Shown here piece by piece: positions 42,422 through 43,985 of a stretch of 64,000 bases of DNA. Both the position numbers and the translations under genes were made by a program. The stretch is from Tetragenococcus osmophilus (lineage in GTDB: Bacteria > Bacillota > Bacilli > Lactobacillales > Enterococcaceae): positions 372,001 through 436,000 of the forward strand of contig NZ_CP027783.1 in NCBI RefSeq assembly GCF_003795125.1, given 5' to 3'. How positions within the stretch are numbered: the stretch's first letter is position 1; each line of letters begins with the position of its first letter. The notes under the pieces are model-generated. The model saw only the letters and a program-made list of their open reading frames with translations. It had not been told where the DNA came from and made no database searches.

Positions 42422-43069
42422 ATGAAAATTTTAGTTACGGGATTCGATCCATTTGGCGGAGAAAAAATAAATCCTGCTTGGGAAGCAGTAAAAAAACTTC
42501 CTAACACAATTAAGGATGCTGAAATTGTTAAAGAAGAAATTCCAACAGTTTACGGTAAGTCAGCAGATGTTTGTAAAAAGGCTATCCAAAAACACCAACC
42601 AGATGTTGTTTTAAATATTGGCCAAGCCGGCGGGCGTTTCACTATTACCCCAGAAAGAGTGGCTATCAATGTAGATGACGCGCGTATTCCTGATAATGAA
42701 GGTAACCAACCAATTGACCAAGTGATCCAATCCGATGGACAAGCGGCTTATTTCACACAATTACCCGTAAAAGCTATGGTTAAAAATGTTAAAGACAACG
42801 GCTTTCCAACAGCAGTCTCAAATTCAGCTGGAACCTTTGTCTGCAACCATATCATGTACCAAGTACAATATATGATTGATAAAGAATTCCCCAATATGAA
42901 AGGCGGCTTTATTCACGTGCCTTTCATTGCAGAACAAGTGGTTGATAAACCTAACCAACCTTTTATGAATATTTCTGATATGGCCTTCTGTATTGAAAAA
43001 GGTCTTGAAGCGATTGTTGATTTTGAAGGTAAAGAAGATTTAAAAACCGTTGGCGGAAAAACACATTAA
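42422..43069 (+). CDS. pcp: pyrrolidone-carboxylate peptidase
   Basis: This 215-residue C15 cysteine peptidase removes N-terminal pyroglutamate from peptides. Motifs are [37 protein letters not shown] (catalytic Glu), [16 protein letters not shown] (nucleophile Cys) and [11 protein letters not shown] (catalytic His). AAGGAAG precedes the ATG. It is the third gene after DUF969-DUF979 and is followed by a strong terminator. The operon looks like a uptake-and-cleavage module for pyroglutamyl peptides. Confidence 0.96.
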
Positions 43070-43080
43070 TCTTTAATAAA

Positions 43081-43127
43081 ATACCGAAGACAAGCATCAC
43101 AAATAGTGCTTGTCTTCGGTATTTTTA
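43081..43127 (+). terminator. terminator after pcp
   Basis: ATACCGAAGACAAGC pairs perfectly with GCTTGTCTTCGGTAT around a 12-base loop, followed by five T. Confidence 0.9.
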
Positions 43128-43183: not shown

Positions 43184-43417
43184 TATGTCCTGAAAAAAGT
43201 CTCAGTACATAAGTCCGTCTGACTTATGGCCTGAAATTTCGCTCAGGACATGATTTATTGTTAGTTATGTACTGAAATCGTGTTCAGTACATAGATCCAC
43301 TACTTTTTTCGTAAAATTCGAGTTTTTAGAACATAAGTCTGCTAAAGTTATGACCTGAGTTTATTTTCAGTGCATAAATCAAGCATTTCTATGTACTGAG
43401 TTGGTTTTCAGGACATA
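43184..43417. repeat. tandem array of 28-bp palindromes with 41-bp period
   Basis: Five 28-bp units lie at 43184, 43225, 43266, 43349 and 43390. Each reads TATG-(T/G/A)-(C/A)-CTGA, eight bases, TCAG-(T/G)-(A/G)-CAT-(A/G), an inverted repeat. The starts are 41 bp apart; the double gap at 43266-43349 holds a decayed sixth unit (AGAACATAAG at 43328-43337 is its right arm). The 13-bp spacers are unrelated. Arms vary but pairs change together in part (CTGA/TCAG is constant). It lies between the pcp terminator and a toxin-antitoxin operon, outside any gene. Confidence 0.85.
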
Positions 43418-43491: not shown

Positions 43492-43758
43492 TTAATCATA
43501 AACATTTTTCCTATGCCCAACTTGAACAACAAGCACAACCAATTGGCTGCCTTCTATTTCAACTATAACGCGATATTTGCCAATTTTATACCGCCATTGT
43601 CCAGACCGATTAGCAGTTAGATCTTTGCCAAATTTGCGAGGATCGTCAATTCCATCAATATTTTGATATAACCAACGAGTAATTAAGGTAGCTTGGTATT
43701 TATCCATCTTTCGAAATTGTTTTTGCACTTCAGACGTAAAGACTAAGCGATAGCTCAT
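43492..43758 (-). CDS. RelE/ParE-family toxin
   Basis: This 88-residue protein matches RelE-type mRNA interferases: SYRLVFTSEVQKQFRKMDKY, DDPRKFGKDLTANRSGQWRYKIGKYRVIVEI and VVQVGHRKNVYD. The central GxWRYxxGxYR and the C-terminal GHRxxVY are typical of RelE/StbE toxins, in which basic residues cut ribosome-bound mRNA. It overlaps the antitoxin gene by 4 bp and lacks its own promoter. Length is normal, so it is probably functional. Confidence 0.9.
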   Translation of the reverse strand: MSYRLVFTSEVQKQFRKMDKYQATLITRWLYQNIDGIDDPRKFGKDLTANRSGQWRYKIGKYRVIVEIEGSQLVVLVVQVGHRKNVYD

Positions 43759-43985
43759 TCTAAACCTCCAAATTCAGTGAGGATTTCATCCATGGATACC
43801 GTTTGTTTCCCATTTTCTAACCAACGTTTATATGCGATATCAGCCGTTTGACAGTCATACTCATCTTCTAATTGTTCCATCGAATATGTTTTTAATAGAT
43901 CGGACAAAGAAATTCCATAGAAATTAGCCATATAATCCAACCATTCTTTTTCCGCGTCGCTCACACGTACTGTGATCATAGCCAT
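43755..43985 (-). CDS. RelB-type antitoxin (ribbon-helix-helix)
   Basis: This 76-residue protein begins MAMITVRVSDAEKEWLDYMANFYGISLSDLLKTYSMEQLEDEYD, a ribbon-helix-helix DNA-binding domain, and has an acidic C-terminus (SMDEILTEFGGLE) that should wrap the toxin. GGAGGTGG precedes the ATG. It is first in the operon, as usual for RelBE pairs, and an extended palindrome sits right before its start, the likely autorepression site. Confidence 0.88.
   Translation of the reverse strand: MAMITVRVSDAEKEWLDYMANFYGISLSDLLKTYSMEQLEDEYDCQTADIAYKRWLENGKQTVSMDEILTEFGGLE

Follow-up and report, generated by a model that had tools for sequence, protein, structure and literature searches.

On the basis of sequence comparisons, we favor, on balance, the view that a palindrome array in a 64,000-nucleotide stretch of the Tetragenococcus osmophilus genome (hereafter, the window) is a member of a dispersed intergenic family of mosaic repeats, similar in kind to BIME, BOX, and EFAR, and that its units are phased DNA sites for a dimeric protein; we infer both this protein and its function. 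Tetragenococcus is a salt-loving, Gram-positive food bacterium. Intergenic palindromic repeats are common and their use is mostly obscure; the present family separates the hypotheses cleanly, in that spacing and half-sites are kept and pairing is not, while a contrasting case from a related genus keeps pairing. If bound by a protein, the arrays of this Gram-positive food bacterium could be markers of boundaries, whether of the chromosome or of transcription.

The array occupies positions 43184 to 43417 of the window, on the 2.33-Mb contig of the 2.38-Mb genome (G000), and lies outside any gene, as the initial annotation had stated and as ORF positions bear out. The five 28-bp palindromes and one decayed unit that it described are real: the five regular units match the motif proposed there with 0 to 2 mismatches, where 0 are expected (100 dinucleotide shuffles). 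The regular units, starting at 43184, 43225, 43266, 43349, and 43390, keep the 41-bp period that had been called exact, but the decayed unit is 29 bp long, and its extra base makes the step from 43266 to 43349 one of 83 bp (41 + 42). The array and its neighborhood comprise the following features, in window coordinates.

42422..43069, plus strand: upstream gene, pyroglutamyl peptidase (PF01470), reading towards the array
43078..43125, plus strand: the upstream gene's own strong intrinsic terminator, separating that gene from the array
43184..43211, no strand: palindromic unit 1, TATGTCCTGA-8-TCAGTACATA
43202..43234, no strand: first spacer-centered dyad in an alternative parse (unit 1 right arm, 13 bp, unit 2 left arm)
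43225..43252, no strand: unit 2, 15 of 16 core positions
43266..43293, no strand: unit 3, TATGTACTGA-8-TCAGTACATA
43307..43335, no strand: irregular central unit of 29 bp, with one extra base and a degenerate left arm, like central units elsewhere in the genome
43349..43376, no strand: unit 4, two pattern mismatches, 16 of 16 core positions kept
43390..43417, no strand: unit 5, TATGTACTGA-8-TCAGGACATA
43492..43758, minus strand: ParE-like toxin gene (PF05016), reading towards the array; context only
43755..43985, minus strand: DUF6290 antitoxin-like gene (PF19807); context only

The pyroglutamyl peptidase beside the array is 95% identical to its Tetragenococcus solitarius homologue, and an Rfam scan near the array returned nothing above any gathering score.

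The search of the genome and its relatives that the initial annotation had proposed revealed a many-copy unit in G000 that is also found in congeneric Tetragenococcus genomes. In G000, the pattern TATGNNCTGA-8-TCAGNNCATA is matched exactly at 84 places, every one of them on the main contig, versus 0 in a backward control, and the fetched stretches contain 27 arrays with 118 units scoring at least 14 of 16 core positions, totals that are lower bounds, since only arrays containing one or more exact units were counted. Two further loci lie near 21.5 and 248.4 kb, and, with a model built from 58 units (R1), 194 matches counted by strand were obtained among the 150 candidates scored. Steps within the 27 arrays measure 41 bp (72 cases), 83 bp (18 cases), or 124 bp (1 case), with no other length; exactly one irregular step occurs in 19 of the arrays and two in none. 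The shared layout is one of regular units, a single irregular central unit with a 9-nt loop, and regular units again, at a 41-bp step. Because the central units of about a dozen arrays, the window's included, have a similar degenerate sequence across loci, they look related by descent. A longer central unit is present in one array near 248 kb and in one array of G008 (steps of 114 and 155). We also observed that G000 array L278 (about 1470-1760; G000:C1 near 248.4-248.7 kb) has a long central palindrome, the left part of which, TATGTCCTGTAATTGC, recurs in G008 array L240.

The 13-bp spacers, described at the outset as unrelated, are not wholly so, given a family-wide tendency to AGTC-n5-GACT or AGTC-n5-GATC. 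Parsed differently, the arrays consist of a spacer-centered 33-bp dyad, TCAGGACATA-13-TATGTCCTGA, which is as good a unit and perhaps a better one; several arrays open with a right half-arm and close with a left one, and the dyad may therefore be the module. Pure tandem expansions of one unit make up arrays L015, L023, L030b, and L039. Watson-Crick pairs at loop-edge and spacer-edge positions (L012-L043) are below chance, so that extended perfect palindromes seem to be avoided.

All 27 arrays are intergenic. With ORFs of at least 60 aa, 17 lie in codirectional, 8 in convergent, and 2 in divergent gaps; with ORFs of at least 80 aa, the respective numbers are 19, 7, and 1, compared with 55, 9, and 21 among the 85 other gaps of the same stretches. 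Arrays are thus depleted from divergent gaps (1/27 versus 21/85; P 0.023), with a convergent excess at P 0.061. The initial annotation had set its reading against that of a widely dispersed short repeat lacking any preferred period or context; the unit is indeed widely dispersed, but it keeps a strict period and an intergenic context. A tRNA or tmRNA gene lies near two arrays (L021, L023), and the ten neighboring genes scanned, out of about 54, code for ClpP, a metal ATPase, an ABC transporter, HMG-CoA reductase/thiolase, transaldolase, an AI-2E transporter, a TetR regulator, RecD2, D-Ala ligase, and homoserine dehydrogenase. An origin or plasmid-incompatibility context, also raised initially, did not hold up, the arrays being chromosomal and dispersed with no cluster at dnaA, which lies at 934 kb in G000. 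Clustering at the origin had appeared likely before dnaA was placed and was rejected thereafter (relative to dnaA, KS P 0.064; mean fractional distance, 0.61). Five arrays lie no more than about 55 kb from the point opposite dnaA (G000:C1 2063-2152 kb, L026-L029), the overall unevenness (P 0.064) being not significant. A phage or plasmid origin was likewise rejected, with 0 phage matches, three plasmid matches of 22 to 27 bases at chance level, and six single-unit viral contigs.

Exact matches to TATGNNCTGA-8-TCAGNNCATA number 47 in the congener G002, 1 in G008, and 0 in the other 38 genomes searched, and a strict two-unit pattern is found in 3 of 105 Enterococcaceae genomes, all of them Tetragenococcus. 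R1 matches in the relatives, counted by strand at E up to 1, number 32 in G008, 5 in G003, 2 each in G005 and G006, 1 in G007, and 0 in G001 and G004; those opened in G003, G006, and G007 consist of one to three degenerate units. In G002, 11 of 13 arrays sit in slots occupied by arrays in G000, and comparison of the genomes shows arrays of common architecture and with alike central units, many of them kept in place in the sister genome. Other G002 sites hold a single unit or a relic only; hence, arrays are evidently also being lost. This, together with the lack of a counterpart of most arrays in most congeners, makes an essential function unlikely.

Across 11 orthologous G000/G002 pairs, the arrays display 7 indel events (41, 82, 41, 42, 42, 1, and 1 bp) and their flanks 24 events of 1 to 53 bp; as aligned, array growth and shrinkage between the sister genomes is shown to be mostly by whole units, with loops and spacers drifting in sequence and hardly in length. 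In seven pairs, substitutions affect 7/480 core positions, a count somewhat biased by the choice of units by core match in G000, 10/120 variable arm positions, 20/240 loop positions, 31/509 positions in spacers with the center, and 221/2104 flank positions. A second sum, from which L025/L043 was dropped because its right flank is not homologous, gives 7/416 for the core versus 141/1822 for the flanks (P 5e-7) and 20/208 for the loops (core versus loop P 1e-5). The divergent and not fully homogenized pairs L020/L032 and L031/L035, taken by themselves, give 3/96 for the core, 131/625 for the flanks, and 14/48 for the loops, L020/L032 being the only pair to combine divergence with a largely unit-by-unit alignment. 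The nearly identical pair L012/L042 and the tandem-homogenized pairs L013/L038, L015/L034, and L029/L039 were left out of these sums; in pairs like L029/L039, unit-by-unit homology has been lost. Judged from G000 versus G002, the half-site TATGnnCTGA is under purifying selection, and core conservation could partly reflect recent spread, recombination, or homogenization.

The 16 core positions (TATGnnCTGA/TCAGnnCATA) are conserved, and the nn positions, loops, and spacers change without base-pair compensation. Among 100 distinct G000 units, Watson-Crick pairing occurs in 78 cases at the variable pair 5/24 and in 54 at 6/23, versus 78.2 and 53.1 expected under independence, and loop-edge pairs fall below expectation. 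The 58-unit alignment yields a covariation score equal to the shuffle mean, with change on both sides at 1 of 10 pairs; compensation across the spacers is absent, positions 29/41 and 30/40 showing a deficit. At its predicted energy minimum, the window array forms a single long-range stem instead of successive hairpins. The long-range hairpin across the array suggested by this fold was rejected, mirror units giving 1.310 versus 1.298 for units of different arrays (P 0.42). As a positive control, seven terminator-like hairpins from 300 kb of G010, which we take to be probably Enterococcus faecalis, have both partners altered in 10 of 12 pairs (0/500 shuffles). Because base pairs do not compensate in the units, over the spacers, or over the array as a whole, a conserved row of RNA hairpins, to which the initial annotation had given room, is unlikely. 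The G010 hairpins and the Tetragenococcus spacer-centered dyad have a common 11-bp stem consensus, GGACATAAGTC-n5-GACTTATGTCC, which, with at most 2 mismatches, is found 11 times each in G000, G002, and G010 and nowhere else among 105 genomes of the family. Their common descent is possible; G010 has 0 two-unit patterns or 41-bp arrays. In the dispersed terminator-like hairpin of G010 (L274 859-887; L273, L268, L272, L269, L265), we further noted that a conserved TTCAGcTGATTaTCTTAAG-like stretch precedes the hairpin, the stem of which strongly covaries.

A DNA-binding array, as first proposed for the window, survives these comparisons: phased sites fit best, given the constant spacing, half-sites that are constrained at each position and independently of one another, and loops free to vary in sequence. 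The arrays would have spread long ago as an element of roughly 200 bp. The fixed step, single irregular center, core constraint, and lack of a pairing constraint suggest that a putative dimeric protein recognizes double-stranded DNA, most simply with one subunit per half-site. The fixed alternation of half-sites at 18 and 23 bp, combined with the 41-bp step, would phase the bound dimers, and a phased array could thus carry several dimers at a fixed pitch. Beyond gene ends, the arrays may serve as nucleoid or transcription-boundary sites, functionally like the BIMEs of E. coli; this possible role behind genes, proposed by analogy with BIMEs (PMC2817692), is the weakest step of the explanation.

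The main rival, which we regard as possible but rather unlikely, is a MITE-like nonautonomous mobile element devoid of host function, whose core and spacing would reflect recent spread and the needs of transposition and whose single loci would decay neutrally. Such an element would account for the homologous central units dispersed over loci, for the restriction of the strict two-unit pattern to three Enterococcaceae genomes, and for the relics in G002, G003, G006, and G007, and the avoidance of promoter-side (divergent) gaps has a parallel in pneumococcal repeats, for which a tolerance reading is given (PMC3049150). However, core substitutions at shared sites lie far below the loop and flank levels, and the 10 alignments read yielded no recognizable clean empty site or target duplication, the G002 sites holding relics or being rearranged. 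Moreover, the one IS200-like Y1 transposase present in each of five genomes (Y1 being the only family searched) has no unit adjoining it.

Structured RNA, in the form of a hairpin row in 3' untranslated regions or terminators, is strongly disfavored, and we give it little credence. The window array does fold better as RNA than 200 of 200 shuffles (z -8.1; z -7.0 for the other strand folded as DNA), as expected of any palindrome array, and the G010 terminator-like family has the same stem consensus; however, compensation is missing at all three registers, whereas the G010 hairpins compensate, the units have no T-run after them, and a strong terminator separates the upstream gene from the array. 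We consider very improbable an operator array that regulates the adjacent toxin-antitoxin genes or another neighbor. The ParE/DUF6290 pair singled out in the initial annotation does adjoin the array, which lies 74 bp from the toxin ORF end, but this association looks incidental, as 0 of the 10 scanned genes beside other arrays are in a toxin-antitoxin pair. Furthermore, the array lies past the toxin ORF's 3' end and not at the promoter, other arrays adjoin unrelated genes, and just 1 or 2 of 27 lie between divergent genes.

The preferred reading, that of phased protein-binding sites in a mosaic repeat, can be set beside known repeat systems. The EFAR elements of Enterococci, as reportedly described by De Gregorio et al. 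in 2009, are modular palindromic elements of variable length, the smallest being 42 bp. They would resemble the Tetragenococcus arrays in being modular palindromes that differ in length and belong to the same bacterial family; a whole-genome search of G010 for palindromic modules of this kind gave the 11 GGACATAAGTC-n5-GACTTATGTCC matches, whose stems covary, and no two-unit array at 41 bp. Composite palindromic repeats between genes are an established kind, exemplified by BIME and BOX (PMC3733652, PMC3049150, PMC2817692) and by EFAR. The BIME/REP of enterobacteria and relatives are imperfect palindromes that occur outside genes in many copies, clustered at regular intervals and for the most part behind genes, and are described as binding gyrase, IHF, and DNA polymerase I (PMC2817692). 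The Tetragenococcus arrays are of this general form, with 84 exact units and 27 of 27 arrays intergenic, that is, short extragenic palindromes in many copies. REP/BIME are, however, defined by a GTAG or CGTC tag at one end in PMC3733652, which reports GTAG repeats from other phyla and in which the word Firmicutes is absent; the Tetragenococcus unit consensus (58 aligned units) contains neither tag. A further difference from BIME is the 41-bp step, nearly constant, with a single irregular unit at the center. Again unlike REP, the Y1 (RAYT-like) gene, one in each of five genomes, is without a TATGnnCTGA/TCAGnnCATA half-site within about 1.5 kb, and a REP/RAYT link was rejected accordingly; many REP-bearing genomes have lone repeats as well, so this difference is weak on its own. 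BOX of Streptococcus pneumoniae (PMC3049150) is a composite repeat found between genes and containing an internal module that can be repeated, in which it resembles the Tetragenococcus arrays, and is enriched between convergent genes. It has boxA/boxC ends and a predicted RNA fold of its own, whereas every regular Tetragenococcus module is palindromic, with a uniform step and no RNA covariation. The near-identical direct repeats and long unique spacers of a CRISPR array are not seen, as units vary in loops and arms, spacers are 13 bp, and there are dozens of loci. A search of open-licence papers found no description of palindromic repeats in Tetragenococcus.

A second half-site family emerged from the congeners. 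The G001 counterpart of array L024 consists of different palindromes, and CTTACTCAATA-6-TATTGAGTAAG, if up to 3 mismatches are allowed, is matched 7, 6, 1, and 3 times in G001, G005, G006, and G007, respectively, and not at all in G003 and G004. The loci concerned (L172 825-1120; L229-L239) are rows of TTACTCA/TGAGTAA units at steps of 41 with a longer central unit, around which the steps are 114, 123-125, or 83+41; a few irregular steps (37, 40) occur in L236 and L238. Among 38 distinct units of this family, arm covariation is absent beyond one weak position. Array architecture is common to both families, and the half-site differs (TATGnnCTGA versus TTACTCA). L172 and L024 occupy one common gap, found by looking there, and L235 and L030b probably another. 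One speculation, which we hold to be doubtful, is that a single Tetragenococcus architecture has had its half-site swapped between species (TATGnnCTGA in G000, G002, and G008; TTACTCA in G001, G005, G006, and G007) and would represent a fast-evolving, genome-wide, co-evolving protein-array pair, like a centromere or boundary system, new to Enterococcaceae. If a protein binds the arrays, such a swap would make the evolution of recognition specificity directly testable. In the gap of G000 array L024, G003 has yet other palindromes, approximately ATTCCCTATGTTTTCAATATCAGGGAAT (L183 880-1120).
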